The position numbers and the translations under genes were made by a program. Source: Pectobacterium aroidearum (lineage in GTDB: Bacteria; Pseudomonadota; Gammaproteobacteria; Enterobacterales; Enterobacteriaceae). Taken from it: a stretch of 64,000 nucleotides of DNA. The notes under the pieces were generated by a model. The model saw only the letters and a program-made list of their open reading frames with translations, did no database searches and had not been told where the DNA came from. The stretch spans positions 868,001-932,000 of the forward strand of contig NZ_CP065044.1 of NCBI RefSeq assembly GCF_015689195.1, in the 5' to 3' direction. Positions 45,703-60,340 of the stretch are shown piece after piece. Numbering within the stretch: the stretch's first letter is position 1; each line of letters starts with the position of its first letter.

Positions 45703-46368
45703 TCAGCCTAGATCGGCATGACCGAAACGTGCCTGCCAGTCATGATCGAACCGGTTAAGTGCATCGTCAACCGCGGGGTCTTGCAGGAACAGCTCGGCAA
45801 CGGCAGGGTCAACGGTAATCGCCCGACACCCGGCCAGCAGACAGTCCAGAACCTGACGTGGTGTCCTAAAGCTGGCTGCTAGCACCTGAGTTTGCGGGCT
45901 GTGCAGGTTAATCAGGGTTTGCAGCTCTTTCACCAGTGCAATCCCATCTCCTCCCTGTGCATCAATACGGTTGACGTAAGGCGCGATATAGCGAGCCCCC
46001 GCCAGTGCGGCATAAAATCCTTGCCCCGCGCCGTAGACGGCGGTGCCGAGGGTGGGAACATCCAGCTCTGTCAATCGCTTAATTGCCACTAAACCTGCAT
46101 GTGTCACTGGTACTTTGACGACCAGAGAAGGAATCACGTCTCTGAGCTTCAGCGCTTCTGCCACCATCACGTCAGGATCGCGCGCCATCACCTGAGCAAA
46201 CAGCTGTCCTTCTGGGCCGACAACGGCTTGCATCTCACGTAGCACGGTATAAATATCGGCTTTTCCGCGTGCGACAATACTCGGGTTGGTGGTCACGCCT
46301 TTAATCGGTAACACGCCAGCAAGCCGTTCTACTGCGGCCACATCAGCCGTATCTAAATAGAATTCCAT
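45703..46368 (-). CDS. Fructose-6-phosphate aldolase (FSA / small transaldolase family)
   Basis: 221 residues from the second of two adjacent ATG codons (GGAGG five bases upstream). FSA splits or forms fructose 6-phosphate from dihydroxyacetone and glyceraldehyde 3-phosphate. Schiff-base Lys85 lies in [17 protein letters not shown] and [27 protein letters not shown] are typical of FsaA/FsaB. Last gene of a PTS operon, 50 bases after the IIC gene. Its role in this operon is probably to act on a PTS-derived sugar phosphate, inferred only from linkage. Confidence 0.88.
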
Positions 46369-46418
46369 CATTGCCTCCGTAAACTAAAACTGGTGTCGGA
46401 TGAGATTAATCATGCGGC

Positions 46419-47678
46419 TTAGCGCACGATAATGCCCAGCAGAATCCCCACCGCGCCGAAATCGGAATCGCTGAATGTCGTGTTTGCCAGTCCGATACTG
46501 CCCAGCACTGGCAGCAGGAAAACGGGCAGGAAGGTAATCAGCAGTCCGTTGGCAAAAGAGCCTAAAATTGCGCCGCGACGCCCGCCAGTAGCGTTACCGA
46601 AAACCCCGGCTGCTGCGCCGACGAAGAAGTGCGGCACCACGCCAGGAATGATCACCGTCATACCCAACAGATAGAGCAGCACCATACCGACCACTCCAGC
46701 CGCAAAGCTGCTCAGGAAGCCGACCAGAACCGCATTCGGCGCATAAGGGAAGACGACGGGGCAATCCAATGCCGGTTTAGCATTGGGAACCAGTTTGTCC
46801 GAAATGCCTTTAAACGCGGGCACGATTTCCGCAATCACCATACGCACGCCTTGCAGCACGATGTACACGCCGGCGGCAAAGGTAATGGATTGAATCAGCG
46901 AAAACATGAACCAGTTTTTCCCACCGGCGTTCATTGTTTTCACCGCTTCAGGGCCGGCAAACAGACAGGTGAAAATGAAGATGAAAAACATGGTAAACGC
47001 GATGGCGACCGGCGTATCACGCAGGAACAGCAGACTCTTCGGCACTTCCATGTCTTCGGTTGATTTCTCTTTATTACCAAATTTGCTGCCGATAAACGCT
47101 GACAGCAGCTGTGATATCGCAGAGAAGTGACCAAAGGCGACGTCATCCGAGCCTGTGACTTTCTTCATATACGGGTGAATAATGGCAGGGAACAGCACCA
47201 TCGATACCCCGACGACCAGCGACCCAACGGTAATCAGCAGCACACCTTTCATCCCTGCTGTCGCCAGAATCACCGCGACCATCATCGACATAAACAGCGT
47301 GTGGTGTCCGGTCAGGAAGATGTATTTCCACGGCGTAAAGCGGGCGATGGCGATATTAATGACCATCGCAAAGAACATAATCATCGCCATCTCGGTGCCG
47401 AAGTTCTTTTGCGCGACGGCGACAATGGCTTCATTGTTAGGGACTACACCGGCAATACCAAATGCATGGTGGAAAATCTCGGCGAAATCGCCCAGCGAGG
47501 ACACAATCAGGCTGGCGCCTGCTCCGAGGATCAGGAAACCCATCACGGTTTTCACGGTGCCTTTGATGCACTCCGTGGCAGGTTTCTTTTGTGCAATCAG
47601 GCCGATAAGGGCGATCAAACCCACCAGTATTGAGGGTTCAGACAGCACATCACTCATTAAAAAACGGAAGAATTCCAT
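46419..47678 (-). CDS. PTS system IIC component, UlaA/SgaT family
   Basis: 419 residues, about ten membrane segments. UlaA-type IIC proteins carry L-ascorbate or related acids/polyols across the inner membrane while phosphorylating them. Signature regions: FMGFLILGAGASLI-like start, AIARFTPWKYIFLTGHHTLFMSMM, PAIIHPYMKKVTGSDDVAFGHF, and GVVPHFFVGAAAGVFGNATGGRRGA. Encoded between IIB and the aldolase. The true sugar is not certain, since no ascorbate-phosphate pathway genes (ulaDEFG) are present. Confidence 0.9.
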   Translation of the reverse strand: MEFFRFLMSDVLSEPSILVGLIALIGLIAQKKPATECIKGTVKTVMGFLILGAGASLIVSSLGDFAEIFHHAFGIAGVVPNNEAIVAVAQKNFGTEMAMIMFFAMVINIAIARFTPWKYIFLTGHHTLFMSMMVAVILATAGMKGVLLITVGSLVVGVSMVLFPAIIHPYMKKVTGSDDVAFGHFSAISQLLSAFIGSKFGNKEKSTEDMEVPKSLLFLRDTPVAIAFTMFFIFIFTCLFAGPEAVKTMNAGGKNWFMFSLIQSITFAAGVYIVLQGVRMVIAEIVPAFKGISDKLVPNAKPALDCPVVFPYAPNAVLVGFLSSFAAGVVGMVLLYLLGMTVIIPGVVPHFFVGAAAGVFGNATGGRRGAILGSFANGLLITFLPVFLLPVLGSIGLANTTFSDSDFGAVGILLGIIVR

Positions 47679-47692
47679 TTTTGATCCTCCGC

Positions 47693-47980
47693 TTATAAAG
47701 CGCCAAGTTCTGTCAGGGCGACCGACAGGCGTTCTTTCATCGCCACTTTGTCGATCATGTTATTCAGGGACACAATTTTCCCTCCCACCGCCTGCGCGAT
47801 GAGCTGATCGGCAATATCTTTGGTGCCGACAAAAATGTCGCTGTCCGTGCCTTTCGCCGAACCTAAATCCACGTGATCCACATCAGCAACCACGCCGAGT
47901 TCTTTCACAATGTTTTTAATGCTCATTTCCATCATCAGGCTGGTACCCAGACCGTTACCGCATACGACTGTAATTTTCAT
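47693..47980 (-). CDS. PTS system IIB component, UlaB family
   Basis: 95 residues. Cytoplasmic phosphocarrier; the active Cys7 is in MKITVVCGNGLGTSLMMEM. Lactose/ascorbate IIB fold. Fourteen bases before the IIC start and 23 after the IIA stop, in one operon. Confidence 0.93.
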   Translation of the reverse strand: MKITVVCGNGLGTSLMMEMSIKNIVKELGVVADVDHVDLGSAKGTDSDIFVGTKDIADQLIAQAVGGKIVSLNNMIDKVAMKERLSVALTELGAL

Positions 47981-48003: not shown

Positions 48004-48447
48004 TTAATAACGAGAAATAACGGAAAGCACCTGTTCGATATCCGTTGCACGGAGTAACGCGGCGACGTCATCAGGTGTGTCGAACAACTGAGCGAGCTGT
48101 GAAATAATATCGATATGGCTATTGCTGTCCGTGGCGGCTAAAACAATCAACAAATGCACGGGGTCGTTACCGTCAGAATGGAAAACCACGCCGTCACGAA
48201 TCAGCGTCAGGCTGACAGCGAGTTGATTCACGCCGTCTTCCGGACGGGCATGCGGCATGGCAATGCCGGGGCCGACGACATAGTAAGGACCGATGGCTTC
48301 ATGAGAGCGATAGATAGCCTCAATATAGGTAGGTTCAATCGAACCGTTATCCAATAAAGGCTTACAGGACAAGGCGATAGCGTGACGCCAATCATCACAG
48401 GCAGGCAAAATCTGAACAACGTCTGGTGTTAGTAAAGTGTTAAGCAT
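48004..48447 (-). CDS. PTS system IIA component, UlaC / mannitol-fructose type
   Basis: 147 residues from MLNTLLTPDVVQ with GAGGTG upstream; the frame continues 41 codons upstream without support. It accepts phosphate from HPr on His66 in GPGIAMPHARPEDGV and passes it to IIB. First gene of the IIA-IIB-IIC-aldolase operon, divergent from a LacI-type regulator gene; the gap between the two start codons is 263 bases. Confidence 0.92.
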   Translation of the reverse strand: MLNTLLTPDVVQILPACDDWRHAIALSCKPLLDNGSIEPTYIEAIYRSHEAIGPYYVVGPGIAMPHARPEDGVNQLAVSLTLIRDGVVFHSDGNDPVHLLIVLAATDSNSHIDIISQLAQLFDTPDDVAALLRATDIEQVLSVISRY

Positions 48448-48710
48448 TAGAGTCACCTCTGTATCATTCTGAACGCAGGATAGTGTGCTGATTGCGAAAA
48501 TAATGTGATTAACATCTAAAAAGATAGCGCTAACTGATATGTGTATCATTAACTGTGACCGGCTTAGCACAAGCGGGGCCTTTATTTGTCCACTCGAACC
48601 GGCACAGGCACACTATCAACGGTGATGACAGGGCGTGAATGACGCAGCATGTTCGGACGGTGTAATACCGCTGTGCGATGAGAAAAATGACGAATGGAGA
48701 GGAAGTGAGC
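48448..48710. promoter_or_regulatory. Divergent control region of the PTS operon and lacI-type gene
   Basis: 263 bases without a gene. It contains TAGCGCTA (48525-48532) in GATAGCGCTAAC, the CG-centred palindrome typical of LacI-family operators, and a half-conserved CRP site TGTGA-TTAACA-TCTAA (48504-48519). Confidence 0.55.
48525..48532. promoter_or_regulatory. Candidate LacI-family operator core
   Basis: Perfect palindrome TAGCGCTA with central CG, 78 bases before the PTS operon start. Only one full site is seen; a double-HTH regulator may use more. Confidence 0.45.
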
Positions 48711-49901
48711 ATGCGTAAGCGTCGCAGTACCGGTAAGGTTACGCTACAGGATGTCGCTGACTACGCGGGCGTAGGAACGATGACGGTATCGCGCGTGATG
48801 CGTAAGCCCGATCTGGTTTCTGAGAAGCTACGCAGCAAAGTGGAACTGGCCGCCAGAACATTAGGCTATGAACCTAATCAGGAGGCTAGCCAGCTCACCG
48901 AGAGCACGAATCGCGTCACGCTACAGGACATTGCGAGTCACGCCGGTGTTGGTGCGATGACAGTGTCCCGCGCGTTGCGGGAGCCGGGGCTGGTTTCCGA
49001 TGCCACACAGAAGAAAATCCATGATGCGATCAAAACGCTGGGCTATGTACCGAACCACGCCGCAGGGGCGTTGGCCTCATCCTATCAACCCGCTATCGCG
49101 GTGCTTTATCCTTTTCAGCAAGATCGCGCCAGCGTGCGTTTTGTGCAGGCATTACAGCAGGCGGTGGGCAAACATAATGTGTCGATAATTATGGGCTGCC
49201 ATGAATATCGCCAGCACACCGAAGCAGGCATGGTTGAAAAACTCTTGCAGCAGCGGCCAGCGGCGCTGGTGTTATTCAGCGCGCAGCTTTCACAACGAAC
49301 CCAGGACATCATCCAGGCCAGCAACGTCATTACGGTGAATGTGTCCGGCGTAGCCGCGCTGAATGCGAATATCAACATTGATATTGCCCTTGCCGAAGCG
49401 GCGGAACAGCTGACGATGTCACTGCTGGAAAAGGGATATCGCCACGTCGCTTATATTGGTGCGCATACGGATAATCGTTTGCAAAAACAGCAGTTGAACG
49501 GCTGGAATAAAGCCATGCTGGCGCATTATCACAATGCGGATTTGAAAATTACGATCCCGGAAGCTCCCAGCCTACAGTTTGGTCGCTATGCCATGACGGA
49601 GCTACTGCAAAACCAGCCGGAGCTGGATGCGATTATCTGTAGTCATGAGGAAATTGCGCTAGGCGCGCTCTTTGAATGCCAGCGCCGCCTTATGAAAGTT
49701 CCTTACGATCTGGCGATTGCCTGTCTGGATGGTTCTGAACAATGTGAGCATACGTTCCCGACGCTGACGGCGATGCAGCTTGACTATGAAAAGCTGGGCG
49801 CGGAGGTCGGGCGTCTGGTGCTTGCCATGATGGACAATGACGAGCATCCACCGGTAGTGGAAAAAGTGAAGTTTATCTTTGAACCCCGCGCCAGCAGCTA
49901 A
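48711..49901 (+). CDS. LacI-family regulator with two tandem HTH domains
   Basis: 396 residues from ATG at 48711 (GGAGAGGA upstream); family members are normally 330-345. Residues 10-62 and 69-121 are both complete LacI HTH units (VTLQDVADYAGVGTMTVSRV and VTLQDIASHAGVGAMTVSRA), 30 of 53 positions identical, ending in LGYEPNQEASQL and LGYVPNHAAGAL. Only the second keeps a normal hinge helix (NHAAGAL). After this follows one periplasmic-binding-type effector domain (QPAIAVLYPFQQD... to the end). Effector unknown; divergent PTS operon is the likely target. The two DNA copies differ, so it is an old duplication and not an assembly slip. Confidence 0.93.
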   Translation: MRKRRSTGKVTLQDVADYAGVGTMTVSRVMRKPDLVSEKLRSKVELAARTLGYEPNQEASQLTESTNRVTLQDIASHAGVGAMTVSRALREPGLVSDATQKKIHDAIKTLGYVPNHAAGALASSYQPAIAVLYPFQQDRASVRFVQALQQAVGKHNVSIIMGCHEYRQHTEAGMVEKLLQQRPAALVLFSAQLSQRTQDIIQASNVITVNVSGVAALNANINIDIALAEAAEQLTMSLLEKGYRHVAYIGAHTDNRLQKQQLNGWNKAMLAHYHNADLKITIPEAPSLQFGRYAMTELLQNQPELDAIICSHEEIALGALFECQRRLMKVPYDLAIACLDGSEQCEHTFPTLTAMQLDYEKLGAEVGRLVLAMMDNDEHPPVVEKVKFIFEPRASS

Positions 49902-51525: not shown

Positions 51526-51852
51526 TTACATGCTCGAATACATATTCATGATAATTCCCCCGCTGATAATTAACGCCATAGAGAAGACGGCGGGGAGATC
51601 CGGTTTCTGTTTATAAAGCAGCATTGAAATAAACGTTACGCCGACGATGCCAAAACCGCACCAGAGGGAATAGGCAACCCCTACGGGTAAGTAGCCCATT
51701 GCCCGCGTTAATGAAAAATAGCAAAGGCAATAAGCGACGATCACGATAACGGAAGGTGAGAGTTTTTTAAATCCATCGGTTTTTTTGATCATTGACGTGC
51801 CGGTAATTTCTGAACCAATGGAAAGTGCCAGCCAGAGGAATCCGTTTAACAT
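51526..51852 (-). CDS. Small multidrug-resistance (SMR) transporter, second of a pair
   Basis: 108 residues, four membrane helices. The conserved membrane Glu lies at residue 15 (SIGSEITGTSMIKKTDGF), and GVAYSLWCGFGIVGVTFIS is the helix-3 signature. SMR pairs act as heterodimers. This one follows the 138-residue partner by 17 bases and belongs to the cutC-cutD cluster; such SMR genes accompany other choline-lyase clusters and are thought to move choline or amines. Confidence 0.85.
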   Translation of the reverse strand: MLNGFLWLALSIGSEITGTSMIKKTDGFKKLSPSVIVIVAYCLCYFSLTRAMGYLPVGVAYSLWCGFGIVGVTFISMLLYKQKPDLPAVFSMALIISGGIIMNMYSSM

Positions 51853-51869
51853 GATGGGTATCCTTACGT

Positions 51870-52286
51870 TTAATGGATGATTTTGGTGTTTAACGGTGGG
51901 TTCTGAACACTGTCCGTGAGTATTTCGGGCTGTTCATCAGCGCCCATCTTAGAGAAGAGGTTCATGATTGCTATGCCAGCGGCAATCACGCTCATGCCAA
52001 TGATGGCCGGAATATCAGGACGCTGGCCGTAAAAGATAATACTGAGCGTCGAAACCAATAAGATCCCCGTACCGGACCAGGTTGCATAGGCTAATCCCAC
52101 GGGAAGATGTTTTACCGCTTTTGATAGCGAATAATAGCAAACGCAGTACAGCAGAATAATTACCGCTAATAACGCTACTTTTGTTATCCCTTGACTATTA
52201 TCAAACATTTTTAACGTAGAGGTAGCAGACGTTTCTGACAGGATAACTAATAACATCCAAAGCCATGATTGCTTTCTCAGTGACAT
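51870..52286 (-). CDS. Small multidrug-resistance (SMR) transporter, first of a pair, with C-terminal tail
   Basis: 138 residues, four membrane helices in the first 112 plus a hydrophilic tail (DEQPEILTDSVQNPPLNTKIIH) not found in EmrE. Membrane Glu at residue 18 (VILSETSATSTLKMF) and GLAYATWSGTGILLVSTL in helix 3. Downstream of cutD by 46 bases on the same strand. MdtJ is the nearest paired model, but linkage points to choline or trimethylamine transport. Confidence 0.85.
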   Translation of the reverse strand: MSLRKQSWLWMLLVILSETSATSTLKMFDNSQGITKVALLAVIILLYCVCYYSLSKAVKHLPVGLAYATWSGTGILLVSTLSIIFYGQRPDIPAIIGMSVIAAGIAIMNLFSKMGADEQPEILTDSVQNPPLNTKIIH

Positions 52287-52332
52287 ATATTGCTCCCGAC
52301 TTATGTTAAGAATACGCTATTTGGTTTTCTCT

Positions 52333-53283
52333 TTAATGACGAACCAGACGAATATCGAAATCAAATTCGTTAAAGAACGTCTCCAAACGATTTAACTCTT
52401 CTTCGTTGTAACTGGGGTCCTCGTTTATTGGGTAAATCATCCCCAGCCTGTCGTATTTTTTGCGGCCTAGCTGGTGGTAGGGCAGTACGTCGATGCGCCG
52501 TATATTGCCGCGCTGTGCCAGCGTCTGGACATAGTGAATGGCGTCGGTAACCGCATCGTACGAATCGTTATAGCCGCGAACGAGTGGCATACGAATGACG
52601 ATATCGGCTCCCAGCCCGACCAAATGTTCCAGATTTCGCCGTATGTTTTCATTCCCAACGCCAAACAGCGCCTTGTGCTGCTGGGTATCAATGTGTTTGA
52701 TATCAAAAAGGAATAAATCCGTTACGGCGGCTAATCTGCTGTAGTGGGATTTCAGGGTTGTGCCCTGTGTTTCGACCGCGGTGTGAATCATCATGCGTTT
52801 GCAGGCGGTGAGCAGATCGACAGCGAAATCCGTTTGTAGACTCATTTCTCCGCCGCTCAGGGTGACGCCGCCGCCAGAGGACAGATAAAAAGGGTAATCC
52901 TGCATGATGATTTCCATCAATTCCGTAACCGTCATCTCTTGTCCTATGACGTCCAGCGCGCCGGACAGACAGGCTGTTTCACACTTTCGGCAACCAATGC
53001 AGTCCGCTGTGCGATCGAGATGATGGTGCCATTGGCCGCTGCTGTCTGCTTGCATGCGGTGAACACCCGTCGGGCAAGCCTCCGCACATTTTCCGCAGTC
53101 GATGCATTTATCCTGAGAGAACATGATCTGATAGGCGTTGCTGATCCCCTCTGGGTTTGCGCACCAGGGGCAACGGATATTGCAACCTTTCATAAAGATC
53201 AGCGTGCGGACGCCTTCCCCGTCGTAGATCGAATACTTCTGAATGTTGAAGAGTCGTCCTGTGGTTTTCTGCGCGTGTTGCAT
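52333..53283 (-). CDS. cutD: Choline trimethylamine-lyase activating enzyme CutD
   Basis: 316 residues from ATG at 53283, with AGGAGG seven bases upstream; a GTG seven codons earlier is less likely. Radical-SAM glycyl-radical activase: cluster motif CNIRCPWC (Cys34, 38, 41), then two ferredoxin-type sites (Cys60/63/66/70 and Cys95/98/101/105), and TLSGGEMSLQ, the SAM-binding GGE. It generates the glycyl radical on CutC. Lies 75 bases after cutC. Oxygen-labile enzyme, so expression is expected without oxygen. Confidence 0.92.
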   Translation of the reverse strand: MQHAQKTTGRLFNIQKYSIYDGEGVRTLIFMKGCNIRCPWCANPEGISNAYQIMFSQDKCIDCGKCAEACPTGVHRMQADSSGQWHHHLDRTADCIGCRKCETACLSGALDVIGQEMTVTELMEIIMQDYPFYLSSGGGVTLSGGEMSLQTDFAVDLLTACKRMMIHTAVETQGTTLKSHYSRLAAVTDLFLFDIKHIDTQQHKALFGVGNENIRRNLEHLVGLGADIVIRMPLVRGYNDSYDAVTDAIHYVQTLAQRGNIRRIDVLPYHQLGRKKYDRLGMIYPINEDPSYNEEELNRLETFFNEFDFDIRLVRH

Positions 53284-53358
53284 TGCGATGCCTCCTTCTG
53301 TCACCGTCAGCGTCCCTGCCCGACGATATGCGGCGAATTCCTTTAGGCGCTGTGGCGA

Positions 53359-55854
53359 TCAGAACTTATCGATCATGGTGCGGCTAATGATCTCATCCTG
53401 AACTTCCTTGCATAATTCAACGAAGTAGGCGCTGTATCCCGCGACACGCACGATCAAGTCACGATATTGCTCCGGCGTTTGTTGGGCTTTTCTCAAGACT
53501 TCATCGTCAACGTAGCTGAATTGCATCTGCCCATTACCCAGAATGGACGATGTTCTCAGCAGGGAAATCAAGCCGTTGCGGCCTTCTGGCGTATCCAGCA
53601 TGCCTTTAAGGAATTTGAAGTTATGCACCATGCCGATGTTCATGCTTTCCACATTCATTTTGCTGACAGATTTGATGCTCGCTGTTGGCCCTTTTTTGTC
53701 AGCCCCTTGCGTTGGGCTGATCCCATCGGAGAGTGGTGCCCATGCCAGTCGGTCATTCGCGCTGGCTGCGGTCAGTTCACCGATTGGGGTGTTGTTCGAG
53801 ATCGATAATGTGCCGTGGCTAAACGTGGAGTAGAGCATCTTGTACTGACGGCACTCCTTTTCCGTCCATTCGGTGATATCCCGCGCAAGCTGGTCGGCTG
53901 CGTTATCATCATTGCCGTATTTCGGCGCATTCAGGCAGTCTCTTCTTAGTTCGTCATAGCCTGAAAAATTAGCCAACAGGCCGTCACGTAGCTGTTCCAG
54001 CGTGTATTGGCGGTCTTCATAAACGAGCTTGCGGATAGCCGCCATGGAGTCAACGTAAGTCGCCAGCCCGGAGAAAATGAGCCCCGGCCCGTGATTGACG
54101 ACGGCACCACCGGCCGCCACATCCCGTCCTTTTTCCATACAGCCTTCGACCAGCAGGGACATCAGCGGCTTGGGCGCGACATCACGATGCACGCGCTGGC
54201 TGATCACGGTGCCAATCGCGGACAGACGGATAATGTGTGCGATCTGCGTTTTCACTGCGCGATCAAAATCTTCAAAAGTCTCCAGCGTGCTCAAGTCGCC
54301 AGTATCCAGCCCCTGAACGCGATCGAACAGGATCATACGGCCGCGGTTTAAGACAAACTCGATGGCGATCGGCCACTGGGTGTAGCCCGTGGAGGTCCAT
54401 TGATAAATGCGGCCTGATTTTTGCGGTTCGACGCAGCCCATCAGGCAGTAGTCGCGCGCATCTTCAAAGTCGAAGCCTTTGCGCAGCATCATCTTGATAT
54501 GGGAATCATCAAAGTGACACGCCGGAAAGCCCATCCCTGATTTAACGACGTCGACAATTTTCTCCAGATACGCCTGAGGGGATTGGTTGTGAATACGGCA
54601 GGCCAGTGACGGCTGGTACACTTTCACGAAGCGCACCGCATCCATGATCAGGTAAGTCAGATCGTTACAGGCATCGCCTCCGCTACGCTTCTGCCCGCCG
54701 ACCGTCAGGTTGATGAACGGCTGATAGCCCGCGAAATATTTCGCACCGCTTTCGCTGGACATCCACATCAGTTCCGCGCATTTCAGAATGAACATCTGCA
54801 TCATTTCCAGTGCCTGTTCGCGCGTCAGGCGACCGGACTGAATGTCCGCTTCATACATCGGGTAACAGTATTGGTCTACACGCCCCAGTGAAATCCCTGT
54901 CTGGTTCTCTTCCACTTCAAACAGTGACTCCAGCGTCCAGATGCTTTGCAGTGCTTCCTGCAACGTTTTGGGAGGATGGGCTGGCACGTTCTCGTTGATT
55001 TCTGCAATGGTCAGCAGTTCAGCGCGCCGTGAAGCATCTGTCTCCTGTGCCGCCAGTTCACGTGCGTGTGCCGCCATGCGGCGGGCATACGCCATGACGC
55101 CGTCGCAGGTTTCAATCGCAGCCTTATAAAAATAGATACGATCGATATTATCCGGCTCTTCCATATCAAGCTGAGCCAGATTCGCCTGCGCATCAGCTTT
55201 GATGCCCTCCATGCCTTTGGTGAACAGCAGCACATCGTAACCGGGGCAGGTGTCGCCGCCGCCGTTGATCTGGTGGTAAGAAAGATCGCTGACGAAGGTT
55301 TCTCCGCTGAATGCCCAGACGCCCGCTTCACGGTATTGTGTCTCGCAAATCTCATCCAGCGAGCGGCCTTGCCAAAACGGGACTATCTCATCACGGATGG
55401 TTTTTTTATCTTCTTCTGAAATTTGAAAAGGATCCTGAGGACGGGTACTCATGGTGTCCAGTTCGTCTCGTACCCAGCGCCAGGCAATATCGGGAGAGAA
55501 CGCCCCCGCACGCGGTTTACCGCAGGGATGCCCGACGATCAGCTCCTCATCCTGAATCAGTATCGGAGCGGTTTCGCAGGCTTTACGAAAGGATTTTGCC
55601 CGTAACAGAATAGGCGGCAGGCCAGGATTGTGCTTCGCCACCTCGGTGAAGGCCAGTGCGCGATAAATAGAAATACTGGGGCGCGCTTCTAAATAACGGG
55701 CGCGAAGACGTTGCATGCGTGGGGTAAGGGGCTCTTGCTCCGCGACGCTGGAGGTTTTTTTTACGCCACCCAACGTAGCCATTTTTTCATTATTCAATAT
55801 GCTGTTATTAAACGGGAAATGATTTCTTTCTGGTGCTAATGCGTCATTATCCAT
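53359..55854 (-). CDS. cutC: Choline trimethylamine-lyase CutC (glycyl radical enzyme)
   Basis: 831 residues; AGGAGA stands seven bases before the ATG. CutC cleaves choline to trimethylamine and acetaldehyde by radical chemistry. Offset by a constant 15 residues, every active-site position known from the Desulfovibrio enzyme is present: Tyr193, Asp201 ([10 protein letters not shown]), Phe380, Cys474 and Glu476 ([12 protein letters not shown]), Thr487 and Tyr491 ([10 protein letters not shown]), and the radical Gly806 (RVAGYSAYF). It is the short form, without the 300-residue N-terminal extension of the microcompartment type. No shell, aldehyde dehydrogenase or alcohol dehydrogenase genes adjoin it. 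Confidence 0.95.
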
Positions 55855-56448: not shown

Positions 56449-57138
56449 TTACAGCGATGCGCCGCCGCACATCACCAACTGCTGGCCGGTAATGGCTGCG
56501 GCAGATGGGGAGAGCAGGTAGCCCACCAGATCGGCCACTTCTTGCGGCTGGATGAAGCGCCCAATCGGCGGCAGCTTCGGTGGTGAGCTCTGACGGCCCG
56601 GCATTGTTAGCATTGGGGTTTCTGTGGCGCCCGGTGCGACGATGTTCACTGTAATGCCGCGTGGCGCCAGTTCCGCCGCCCAGCTTCTTGCCATGCCGAT
56701 CATCGCGGATTTGGTCGTGACGTATTGGCTGCGCCCTGCTGCACCGCTTGAGGTGCGACTGCCCAGCAGCACGATGCGCCCACCTTGTGGCAGCTTATCG
56801 ACCAGACGGTCGGCAAGTACCTGTGCCGCATGGATATGCAATCGCCATAGCGTTTCACCATCTTCCAGCGAAAGTTGGCCGAGCGGGGCGGATTTCATAA
56901 TGCCAGCAGCATGGATAACGGCATCAACCTGCGTAATTTCGTCCAGAATGGCCGTCAACGCGGGCGTATCCATGATATCCACCGCGCGGTGGGTAAAGTG
57001 TGGATGTGAATAGTCACCCGGCTTGCGCGACAGGCCGGTTACCCGCCAGCCTTCCGCCAGTAATTTTTGTGTGATGGCGGCACCGATCCCTGAGCTGCTA
57101 CCGGTAATCAGGGCGTGTTTAGGGGCTGTAGCTGACAT
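56449..57138 (-). CDS. Short-chain dehydrogenase/reductase
   Basis: 229 residues. Rossmann motif TGSSSGIG (12-19), NAG-like IHAAGIM, and catalytic Tyr138/Lys142 in SQYVTTKSAM. Ends with GQQLVMCGGASL as in classical SDRs. Likely an NAD(P)-dependent sugar or sugar-acid dehydrogenase, judged from its place as last gene of a sugar-acid catabolic cluster; 64 bases after the YhcH-type gene. Substrate not known. Confidence 0.85.
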   Translation of the reverse strand: MSATAPKHALITGSSSGIGAAITQKLLAEGWRVTGLSRKPGDYSHPHFTHRAVDIMDTPALTAILDEITQVDAVIHAAGIMKSAPLGQLSLEDGETLWRLHIHAAQVLADRLVDKLPQGGRIVLLGSRTSSGAAGRSQYVTTKSAMIGMARSWAAELAPRGITVNIVAPGATETPMLTMPGRQSSPPKLPPIGRFIQPQEVADLVGYLLSPSAAAITGQQLVMCGGASL

Positions 57139-57202
57139 GCAATGTCTCCTTCGTTCGGACTTAACGGTTTTGATGCAACCGTGTTAATGACAACGCTATG
57201 AT

Positions 57203-57670
57203 TTACAACAACGCGACGGGAATTTTAAACACGGCTTTTTTGACCGGAGCAGGGCTGTCGTTAATCGCACATAGCGCCTGATGGGCTTCGCCCGGATAGA
57301 ACGTGACGAAGTCGCCTGCCCGCAGATGGATCTGATGCGGCACCTGTGGGTTATCCAGAATGTAGAGATCCGGCTTACGCTCGGTCGCGGGTTGACCATG
57401 CACATCATTCAGACCGTAACCGATAATTTCCTCGCCTTCCAGAATCAACTGAATATCGAGGTAGTTGCTGTGAAATTCGGTATGTCGCGTGGCACGCGGT
57501 GCGGTATTCACGGTACCGATATTGTAAAACCAGTCGGCACCTTCCGGCTGATAGCGGCCTTCGGGCAGCGCATTCAGTTCAGCTAACGACATACCGGGTG
57601 CAGACAGAATGGTCCAGAGTGCATCAGGCAGCGTAGCGAGTTTGAGGGCGTTAAGGTTTCCTGCAATCAT
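57203..57670 (-). CDS. YhcH/YjgK/YiaL family protein (possible sugar anomerase)
   Basis: 155 residues. DUF386 cupin-like fold; the metal-binding positions are in HTEFHSNYLDIQLILEGEEIIGY and FYPGEAHQALCA. One member (NanQ/YhcH) has been described as an anomerase for sialic acid. Here it stands between an SDR and a BNR protein, so a role on the cluster sugar is likely. Confidence 0.88.
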   Translation of the reverse strand: MIAGNLNALKLATLPDALWTILSAPGMSLAELNALPEGRYQPEGADWFYNIGTVNTAPRATRHTEFHSNYLDIQLILEGEEIIGYGLNDVHGQPATERKPDLYILDNPQVPHQIHLRAGDFVTFYPGEAHQALCAINDSPAPVKKAVFKIPVALL

Positions 57671-57733
57671 AATAGTGTCCTGAAGGTAGCGGGGGAGCGC
57701 CCCCCCGCTGACAAAGAGAAAAAGTAGCGTGGT

Positions 57734-58921
57734 TTAGTTCGCCTTGACCCACTCTTCACTTACCACGACGTGCTTGATCGCCTGACGGAAGTAGGTGAAC
57801 GCCACGTGCAATTTACCGTCCTGCGCCTGTTTGACGCTGGGGTAAGAGAACTCGCGATTCAGCTTCTCGGTTGAGTTGTTGGTCATGCAGTAGCCGTCGC
57901 CCACTTCAATATTACGCTGCCACGGCCAGCTCTTACCGCCGTCTTCCGAAATGGCGAGCGTCATCGGTGCACGCGGGGCACCCCAGAAGGCGCTGCGGCT
58001 GCCCGCCTGAACTTCCGGCATTTTGGCATTGCTGGCTTTGTCTTCTTCATCCTCGATTTCATCGTACAGCGACAGACGGCGCTCGGTGGCATCGGCGGCG
58101 CTCATGTGGTTGAACACCAGCGCCAGATGGCCATTCTCCAGCGTAGTCACCTGAATAGATGAGTTGTTGTTGGGCAAATCGGTCGGCACGGGATCTGACC
58201 AGGTTTTACCGCCATCCGTTGAACGACTTTGGTAGATGAAATCAGCCCAGCGGCTGCGGTATAGCGCCAGCAGCGTGCCATCCTGCAACGGGGTGATGTT
58301 CATATGTACGCAGCCCGTGCTGTTTGGCACCGGATATTCCCGCCAGGTTTTACCCTGATCGCTGGAAATTTTCACGGCGCTGTCATCGTTGTTGCCGACC
58401 CACTTCTCACCCGGCTGAACGCGGCAGTAGAACACCGGTAGCAGCCAGTCGCCGTTTGCCAGCACGGTGATTGGCTGGCGGATGAACGTTCCCGGCTGGT
58501 CGAGCAATGTGCCGATCTCGCCCCAGGTGGTGCCGAAATCCGTGGATTGGCGGTAGCGCACAATGGCGGTGTCCTGATTACCGGATTTCTGCGCGGTATA
58601 CAGTAGCCACAGCACATTATCTGGCGCGAGGAACAGAACCGGGTTCTGTTCGGAACGCGTGGCATCTTCAGACAGCTTAACGGCTTTGCTCCAGTTATCA
58701 CTGCCTTTCACCAGACGGGACATGTAGATAGAGATATCTGCAATCCCTTCCTGTGTGCCGCCGAACCAGACGCACAGTACATCGCCGTTTGGCAGATGGA
58801 GCAGGTTGGCCGCATGATTCTGCGGGCATTCCGACGGAATGTAGGCATCCAGACGCGCGGCATCGCCTTCTGCGTGATGAACTTTTCCGCTACGTTCCAC
58901 GGTAATGATTTCGCTACTCAT
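57734..58921 (-). CDS. BNR-repeat (sialidase-like) protein, cytoplasmic
   Basis: 395 residues. Four Asp boxes (S-x-D-x-G-x-T-W) are visible: STDFGTTW near 126, SSDQGKTW near 187, STDGGKTW near 234 and SEDGGKSW near 325. This is a six-bladed propeller of the BNR_2 family. There is no signal peptide, unlike secreted sialidases, and the Arg triad of true sialidases is not evident to me. It starts four bases after the symporter stop. Activity is open; hydrolase, isomerase or lyase on the imported sugar are all possible. Confidence 0.8.
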   Translation of the reverse strand: MSSEIITVERSGKVHHAEGDAARLDAYIPSECPQNHAANLLHLPNGDVLCVWFGGTQEGIADISIYMSRLVKGSDNWSKAVKLSEDATRSEQNPVLFLAPDNVLWLLYTAQKSGNQDTAIVRYRQSTDFGTTWGEIGTLLDQPGTFIRQPITVLANGDWLLPVFYCRVQPGEKWVGNNDDSAVKISSDQGKTWREYPVPNSTGCVHMNITPLQDGTLLALYRSRWADFIYQSRSTDGGKTWSDPVPTDLPNNNSSIQVTTLENGHLALVFNHMSAADATERRLSLYDEIEDEEDKASNAKMPEVQAGSRSAFWGAPRAPMTLAISEDGGKSWPWQRNIEVGDGYCMTNNSTEKLNREFSYPSVKQAQDGKLHVAFTYFRQAIKHVVVSEEWVKAN

Positions 58922-58924
58922 GAC

Positions 58925-60340
58925 TCAGGCTCCTGATTTATTTTCAGTTTGAGAAATTTTGATTTTGTTCGCTTTGTTCGGAATCATGCGGTCGAGCAGC
59001 ATGACGATCGCTGGCGTGGCCAATGCGACGTACATATTATCGATGCCGTATGGGTTACCGAGTATGTACCAGACCGAGGTGACGACACAGGCTGATATCA
59101 AGCTGGCGTTTGCACCACGTGCGCTGTTGAAAAACGGCAGGTAGAACGCAATCACCGCAACCACGGAAATCGACAGACGAATAGCACGGGTAAAGAACGA
59201 CAGCTTCAGAATTTCAGGAACGAACAGCACGAAGACGAGTGGCGCGAAACCTACGACAAGCGACAGGATTCGGGTCATTTTCATCTCTTTTTCTGGTGTC
59301 GGTTTCCAGTAAGGAACGTAGAAGTCCTTAATCAGCAGGGAAACGATAGCCAGTGCCACCATACTCACGCTGATGAAGATAGACGCGACCAGTGACGTGG
59401 TGACCAGACCAGCGAGCCACGGATTCATGTCTTGCAGGAAAACCGGCATCGCGTACAGGCTGTTGATTTCAGGGTGAGCAAACTTCGCTGCGACACCGAT
59501 GACCGCGATAGCCAGTGCAATCGGCATACAGAAGAAGAAGGCAACCCAGGTGGCACGTTTGGCGCTGGTGGCATCTTTTGTTGACGAAATGGCCTGAATG
59601 ACGAACTGCGTACAGAAGATAGAACCGATAGTCCCGATCAGCCAGGCGAAGATGGTGCTGGCACCGAGTTTACCGTCCCACGTCCAGTAGTAATCCGGCA
59701 TTTGTTCGATCATTGGCTTGAAGCCGCCGGTCATTTTCAATGCCACGAACAGGATGATCATGACGCCAGCGTACTTCACGGCGCTGTGGATCAACGTGAT
59801 GTAGGCTGTTCCTTTCAGACCACCGAAGTAGTAGTAGAAGGTACTGACGACCGCAGTGATCAATGCGGCAACAGGCAGGGAGACTTTCAGCACCGTGGCA
59901 ATCGCCGCCGCGCCGCTGACGTAGTTGCCCACGTTTACCAGCAACAGCGCATAGATCATGATGATCGAAATGATGTTTTTGGTGCTGGTACCGTATTTCT
60001 CGGCAATCGCGCCAGAGATGGTGATCTTCCCGGTGTTATAAATCTTCTTCACCAGAATAATACCAAACAGCGGGAAGCCGATGGCGGCACCAATCACCGA
60101 CCAGGATGCGGCAAAGCCGTTCTCAAAGGCAGACTGTGCCGTACCGATGGTGGATTTAGCACCGATGAATTCAGTCATCAGCAGGATACCGACGATAAAC
60201 GCCGGTAGCGCGCGTGACCCTTCCATGAACTCGGTGTTCGATTTACTGCGGAGCTTGTAGGTTAACCATGAGGTGAATGCGATATAAAACACAATCATCC
60301 CAACGATTATGAGAGTGTCAGTAAGGTTAAAATGGTTCAT
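58925..60340 (-). CDS. Sodium:solute symporter (SSS family)
   Basis: 471 residues with about 13 hydrophobic segments. SSS fold: FYIAFTSWLTYK, the GNYVSGAAAIATVLKVSL region of helix 4 and FSFFTRAIRLSISVVAVIAF-type helices near the C-terminus. Members of this branch carry sialic acids, glycosides or other sugar acids with sodium. Encoded between the DapA-type aldolase and the BNR protein, so it is the likely uptake system of the cluster. Confidence 0.87.
   Translation of the reverse strand: MNHFNLTDTLIIVGMIVFYIAFTSWLTYKLRSKSNTEFMEGSRALPAFIVGILLMTEFIGAKSTIGTAQSAFENGFAASWSVIGAAIGFPLFGIILVKKIYNTGKITISGAIAEKYGTSTKNIISIIMIYALLLVNVGNYVSGAAAIATVLKVSLPVAALITAVVSTFYYYFGGLKGTAYITLIHSAVKYAGVMIILFVALKMTGGFKPMIEQMPDYYWTWDGKLGASTIFAWLIGTIGSIFCTQFVIQAISSTKDATSAKRATWVAFFFCMPIALAIAVIGVAAKFAHPEINSLYAMPVFLQDMNPWLAGLVTTSLVASIFISVSMVALAIVSLLIKDFYVPYWKPTPEKEMKMTRILSLVVGFAPLVFVLFVPEILKLSFFTRAIRLSISVVAVIAFYLPFFNSARGANASLISACVVTSVWYILGNPYGIDNMYVALATPAIVMLLDRMIPNKANKIKISQTENKSGA

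Follow-up and report, generated by a model that had tools for sequence, protein, structure and literature searches.

The window analysed here (the whole stretch of 64,000 nucleotides from Pectobacterium aroidearum, contig NZ_CP065044.1) contains a gene (P0001) for a LacI-family regulator that lies divergently from genes for the EIIA, EIIB and EIIC components of a PTS (Table 1). The preliminary description had proposed that this regulator carries two complete helix-turn-helix (HTH) units and a single core, and its open reading frame, coordinates and residue ranges all proved correct: both HTHs matched the Pfam LacI model, and in the one core per chain PF13377 and PF00532 both scored above their cut-offs. 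Residues 10-62 and 69-121 are identical at 30 of 53 positions and their DNA at 97 of 159. Among the 20 matches to PF00356 found genome-wide, the regulator was the only open reading frame with a pair. By domain content the protein is a LacI-family member, with an N-terminal HTH (PF00356 twice), a periplasmic-binding-like core and a hinge motif (that of HTH2); it departs from the LacI/GalR pattern in having two HTHs, a single HTH per chain being usual in this family but not demanded by the family models. The best NCBIfam matches were to GntR and IdnR models and fell below the curated cut-offs (287, 210 and 189 bits, with cut-offs of 400, 500 and 433, respectively).

Table 1. Features of the two-HTH regulator locus. 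Positions are those of the window; the cut-off of PF00356 is 27 bits.
Feature	Position	Strand	Remarks
Fructose-6-phosphate aldolase-like gene, possible operon end	45703..46371	-	TIGR00875 over cut-off
PTS EIIC gene (GAT/ascorbate type)	46419..47678	-	PF03611; NF006919 over cut-off
PTS EIIB gene	47693..47980	-	PF02302
Divergent PTS EIIA gene, presumed target	48004..48447	-	PF00359; start codon
Conserved CRP-like block, AATGTGATTAACATCT	48502..48517	+	Sequence conservation
Putative operator site A, GATAGCGCTAAC, central CpG	48523..48534	+	CpG in 25/25 two-HTH loci
Putative operator site B, TGATATGTGTATCA, lacking the central CpG; centre-to-centre distance to A 13 bp	48535..48548	+	Half-sites near-invariant, centre hypervariable
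Two-HTH LacI-family regulator gene (P0001)	48711..49901	+	396 aa, one open frame
HTH1, residues 10-56	48738..48878	+	PF00356, 67.2 bits; dN/dS 0.049 (21 genus sequences)
Linker (residues 57-68) whose hinge is altered, with Glu58 at the LacI Val52 position	48879..48914	+	D/E in 25/25 two-HTH loci
HTH2, residues 69-115	48915..49055	+	PF00356, 66.7 bits
Canonical hinge of HTH2, PNHAAGALAS	49050..49079	+	Sequence
Single effector-binding core (Peripla_BP)	49089..49898	+	Peripla_BP_3 and Peripla_BP_1

Genomic context analysis revealed that homologues of EIIA, EIIB and EIIC (42-100% identity) adjoin the regulator in all 22 loci listed, single-HTH and double-HTH alike. Among the loci taken with 5 kb flanks, the aldolase gene was seen in two (L078 and L084) but not in those of Samsonia (L088) and Brenneria izbisi (L089). 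Within the genus, a close EIIC (98-100% identity) is present in exactly the 21 genomes that have the regulator; in the other four, two hold a relative of 59% identity and two have none at E 1e-150. The regulator is most likely a repressor that responds to a sugar and acts both on the divergent EIIA-EIIB-EIIC operon and on its own gene; we infer both the repressor role and the sugar ligand. No gluconate or idonate genes were present among the neighbours examined, which were those of EIIA, EIIB, EIIC, the aldolase and an NMT1-like protein. Elsewhere in the window, positions 51526-55854 hold genes for CutC, a choline trimethylamine-lyase (1530.7 bits against a cut-off of 1050), and its activase (401.5 bits against 360); after these come two small genes for transporters of the multidrug-resistance type, which score below every cut-off listed. 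Positions 56449-60340 carry what we take, by eye from the translations, to be a cluster for sialic-acid-type or similar sugars, with genes resembling those of a short-chain dehydrogenase, YhcH, a sialidase and a sodium-solute symporter.

The search for the two-HTH architecture in other genomes, proposed in the preliminary description, revealed full-length relatives (91-100% identity) in 21 of the 25 Pectobacterium genomes, the window's own included; the remaining four (G011, G014, G018 and G023) gave matches of only about 26-30% identity. Beyond the genus, the two-HTH form was found in Samsonia erythrinae (86% identity), in B. izbisi (78%) and in two genomes of the genus g120 (58% in G143 and 66% in G1429). 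A search of 392 genomes of the family at E 1e-100 matched 31, with two HTHs in 8 and one in 23. Pairwise counting among the 21 genus sequences gave dN/dS values of 0.049 for HTH1, 0.063 for HTH2 and 0.044 for the core, and the recognition-helix residues M24, T25, V26, S27 and R28 of HTH1 were invariant in nine aligned sequences. The value for HTH1 indicates that this domain is under purifying selection and is not a decaying copy, and the earlier view that selection retains both copies was therefore upheld. With two HTHs per chain and a likely DNA target that differs in step with them, this probable repressor of sugar transport in soft-rot bacteria and some relatives gives the impression of a functional form within a textbook protein family, not of a sequencing error. 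A separate observation in the same 21 sequences was a low synonymous divergence at the 5' end of the gene, positions 48711-48878 (pS 0.20 for HTH1, about half the 0.40 of the core, and 0.11 for codons 1-9), which suggests a constraint acting on the coding DNA itself.

Wider searches were made with an N-terminal profile (A1), with part of the candidates per genome scored. In 398 genomes of the phylum, at E 1e-25, it matched four, namely three two-HTH genomes of Pectobacterium and the single-HTH relative G043; in 369 genomes of the class, at E 1e-17, it matched two, the window's own and G180, whose gene reads by eye as single-HTH. Among plasmids, the 40 matches listed, out of 2261 records with a match, each spanned at most 210 bases and hence represent one HTH each, and no recognisable two-HTH match was present among the 10 phage matches listed of 70. 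Searches of the open-access literature listed no two-HTH LacI protein.

Phylogenetic analysis of HTH2 plus the core (32 rows) placed the nine two-HTH rows in one group with support of 100/100, in a tree for which the program warned of long branches meeting, G143 among them. The two-HTH form is one clade among single-HTH relatives that lie beside homologous PTS genes, and an internal duplication of the DNA-binding domain, with changes in both copies since, is for this reason its likely origin. The distribution of ancestral features argues in the same direction, because HTH1 shares the N-terminal tail and helix 4 with the single-HTH relatives, HTH2 shares the join between hinge and core, and the two copies in the window are at nearly equal distances from 23 single-HTH domains (mean identities of 33.6 and 34.9 of 54). 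The earlier suggestion that HTH1 may have been added on finds no support in that form, given this division of features and the near-equal distances; a gain of HTH1 from another LacI gene is likewise not favoured, given that HTH1 keeps the relatives' N-terminal tail, and the tree of the HTH domains, midpoint-rooted and of 54 columns, cannot settle the source of HTH1. Both forms occur in the genus g115 (double in G1301, single in G138 and G1369), which suggests that the whole locus may have been exchanged or moved between lineages. At the g115 loci L036, L105 and L097, the identity of EIIA to that of the window was 66% for L036 and 85% for L097.

The intergenic region, in which the preliminary description had noted no operator, was scanned for dyads of the form G-[AGT]-T-A, four bases and the mirror (GDTA-N4-TAHC), a definition chosen after the first set of loci had been viewed. 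Upstream of the single-HTH relatives listed lie two or three CpG-centred palindromes of the GATAGCGCTATC type per locus. In 58 single-HTH loci (25 from close and 33 from more distant relatives) the scan found 148 dyads, 145 of which have a central CpG, and a pair of dyads 13 bp apart at 29 loci. The 25 two-HTH loci hold two dyads each, 50 altogether, 25 with the CpG and 25 without, and the 13-bp pair is present at all of them; site A has the CpG in 25/25 and site B in 0/25, so that the state of the second site correlates with the number of HTHs. One of these loci, L098 of G1429, was obtained after the pattern had been formulated and fits it (A, GATAACGCTAAC; B, TGTTATAGCTATCA), as do 14 single-HTH loci obtained later (L099-L112). 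L098 had been missed by a scan of 330 bases because its intergenic region is longer, and was found with a longer one; repeats with GGTCAGGCATGCCTGACCC enlarge the regulator side of this region, and the operator consequently lies farther from the regulator start in G1429. In several single-HTH relatives the palindromes number only two and lie 34-35 bp apart, so it is not certain that the double form has lost a third.

Parsimony on the codon tree of the 25 two-HTH loci gave 2 changes in the half-sites of B (10 columns) and 4, 14 and 11 changes in the three columns of its centre (29 in total), as compared to an average of 3.5 for third codon positions on the same tree. The outer arm of B (TATCA) showed no change. 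CGCTAAC of site A also showed none, an invariance that is partly built in since the loci were aligned on it; the dyad scan of the 58 and 25 loci was not anchored in this way. By this footprint, constraint acts on the arms of site B and not on its centre. The 14 and 11 changes in columns 48542-48543 are more than simple drift explains, and hairpin-loop mutation or recombination might lie behind this fast change. Site B shares its half-sites and register with the CpG-centred sites of related loci. Promoter elements, judged by eye, are not favoured as the cause of its conservation; the block preceding site A we take, by eye from the CRP consensus, to be CRP-like. The conserved half-sites of B over 25 loci provide independent evidence, of a sequence-footprint kind, consistent with the earlier idea that HTH1 may serve a second site.

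The exact composite site occurs once in each of the 13 gene-bearing genus genomes (of 21) for which matches were fully listed, about 250 bases or less from the regulator start, and no copies with one mismatch were present in these 13 genomes. With up to three mismatches, matches in the same genomes were at about the control level except for the exact cognate site. The single-site pattern GRTANCGCTANC was uninformative, with 28 genome matches vs 52 for the reversed control. These counts do not favour a wide regulon, and the regulon looks local; the relaxed specificity once suggested for the protein found no support, the composite site being single in the fully listed genomes.

The dimer interface of the LacI DNA-binding domain is made by the hinge, and two such domains have been linked through a V52C disulfide (PMC9743208). 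In the window's protein, the hinge of HTH1 retains the P-N-x-x-A-x-x-L frame but has Glu at what we take to be the position of LacI Val52. The preliminary description had considered this hinge lost; it is indeed altered, but outright loss overstated the case, because the frame remains. At the Val52 position HTH1 has Asp or Glu in 25/25 two-HTH loci, and an acidic residue is found there in 0/25 of the HTH2s, which have Ala (24) or His (1), and in 0/58 single-HTH relatives, which have Ala (53), Thr (4) or Ser (1). The linker between the HTHs is variable in sequence, and that of B. izbisi is 10 residues longer with the same site spacing. In LacI the hinge helices work at the CpG step in the middle of the operator. 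We propose that the acidic residue may weaken the pairing of HTH1 hinges; a point against such an impairment is that HTH1 retains the hinge Ala and Leu. The correspondence between a hinge-altered HTH1 and the CpG-less site B is the central point of the argument.

The reading that we consider best, with a probability of roughly one half, is that the HTH2s with their hinge bind site A and the hinge-impaired HTH1s bind site B, after a duplication in a single-HTH ancestor. This ancestor would have bound CpG-centred palindromes in the normal LacI mode, and the internal duplication of its DNA-binding domain would have given four HTHs per dimer. The two HTH2s, joined to the core by intact hinges, would bind site A and bend it sharply in a kink at its central CpG. 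The two HTH1s, held by a flexible linker, their hinges pairing less well because of the acidic residue, would bind the TGATA half-sites of B without the hinge step. Since binding by HTH1 would need no hinge step, the centre of B would be free to change. Duplication, hinge change and loss of the CpG all fall on one stem branch, and should for that reason be counted as one correlated event.

That a single dimer covers both sites is a further part of the proposal. With four HTHs per dimer and four half-sites in 26 bp, A and B could both be occupied by one dimer. A crude helix model gives a distance of 47-51 Angstrom between equivalent points at a 13-bp separation vs a linker contour of at most ~49 Angstrom, so that such a span would be possible but tight. 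The 13-bp spacing alone is no argument for tethering, because 29 of the 58 single-HTH loci have such a pair. We put forward, at somewhat less than even odds, that one four-HTH dimer may read two overlapping operators 13 bp apart, hinge-kinked at A and hinge-free at B, which would be a natural, tethered answer to the 13-bp sites of GntR-type regulators. The same occurrence of the pair at 29/58 single-HTH loci, together with a linker that barely reaches, speaks for two separate dimers on A and B, as may occur in the single-HTH relatives, with HTH1 adding only contacts or cooperativity. This is a serious rival and the main one, which we judge rather unlikely, as it leaves unexplained both why the centre of B alone is CpG-less in 25/25 two-HTH loci and why the hinge of HTH1 is acidic.

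Other arrangements of the four HTHs appear improbable. Each chain might sit in cis on neighbouring half-sites (e.g., HTH2 on the inner half-site of A and HTH1 on that of B), an arrangement favoured by the short distance between the inner half-sites, which at 6 bp and, in the crude model, 34-44 Angstrom rank with the closest pairs, or the assignment might be reversed, with HTH1 on A and HTH2 on B; against these, the absence of change in the outer arm of B over 25 loci implies that something reads this arm, and the core sits on HTH2, where the working hinge is expected. A still smaller chance is given to HTH1 as a source of general, non-specific DNA affinity with the footprint at B kept by another factor. 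The evidence on B is sequence-based and so far compatible with this, but B has the half-sites and register of the CpG-centred sites in related loci, and M24 to R28 do not vary in the nine aligned sequences. An assembly artefact or a decaying passenger domain is hardly credible and both are rejected, as 21/25 genus genomes and other genera carry the gene, the dN/dS of HTH1 is 0.049, and nothing was found in favour.

Among known systems, the GntR/IdnR branch of gluconate and idonate repressors supplies the nearest named models, and the 13-bp overlapping sites of GntR-type regulators parallel the spacing of A and B; the regulator differs from this branch in its two HTHs, its PTS neighbours, its CpG-less site B and its sub-cut-off scores. 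A survey of LacI regulators reports 13-bp overlapping sites at over half of the operons belonging to GntR and its orthologues, and counts 110 operons with upstream sites spaced by about 13 bp; it describes tetramer binding at such sites as hard to square with structures and suggests that binding there may follow a special mode (PMC4052901). In the same survey, 1251 of 1303 regulators have even palindromes and 1173 a CG centre, which is the rule among even palindromes (PMC4052901). The even palindrome with a CG centre fits the sequence at A in 25/25 loci and at B in 0/25. The single-HTH relatives in Enterobacterales (46-54% identity to the regulator for the 11 closest loci first obtained) resemble the locus in the window in gene order, in the homologous EIIA-EIIB-EIIC genes and in GATA-type half-sites, and differ from it in having one HTH, CpG-centred palindromes and no acidic residue at the Val52 position; one of them lies beside homologous EIIA-EIIB-EIIC genes on the E. 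coli plasmid NZ_CP061765.1. Regulators of the AraC/XylS family also have two HTHs per chain, which read adjacent DNA as an old fixed unit, but they belong to an unrelated family, in which the pair does not represent a domain copied inside a LacI-type protein.

In the textbook repressor LacI, each chain bears one HTH. A two-HTH form that is conserved and has a CpG-less second site would separate, in a natural system, the reading of the major groove from hinge kinking, and would also give a clear example of joint change in a regulator and its operator. The two-HTH regulator offers a natural test case for the unexplained 13-bp overlapping sites of GntR-type regulators.
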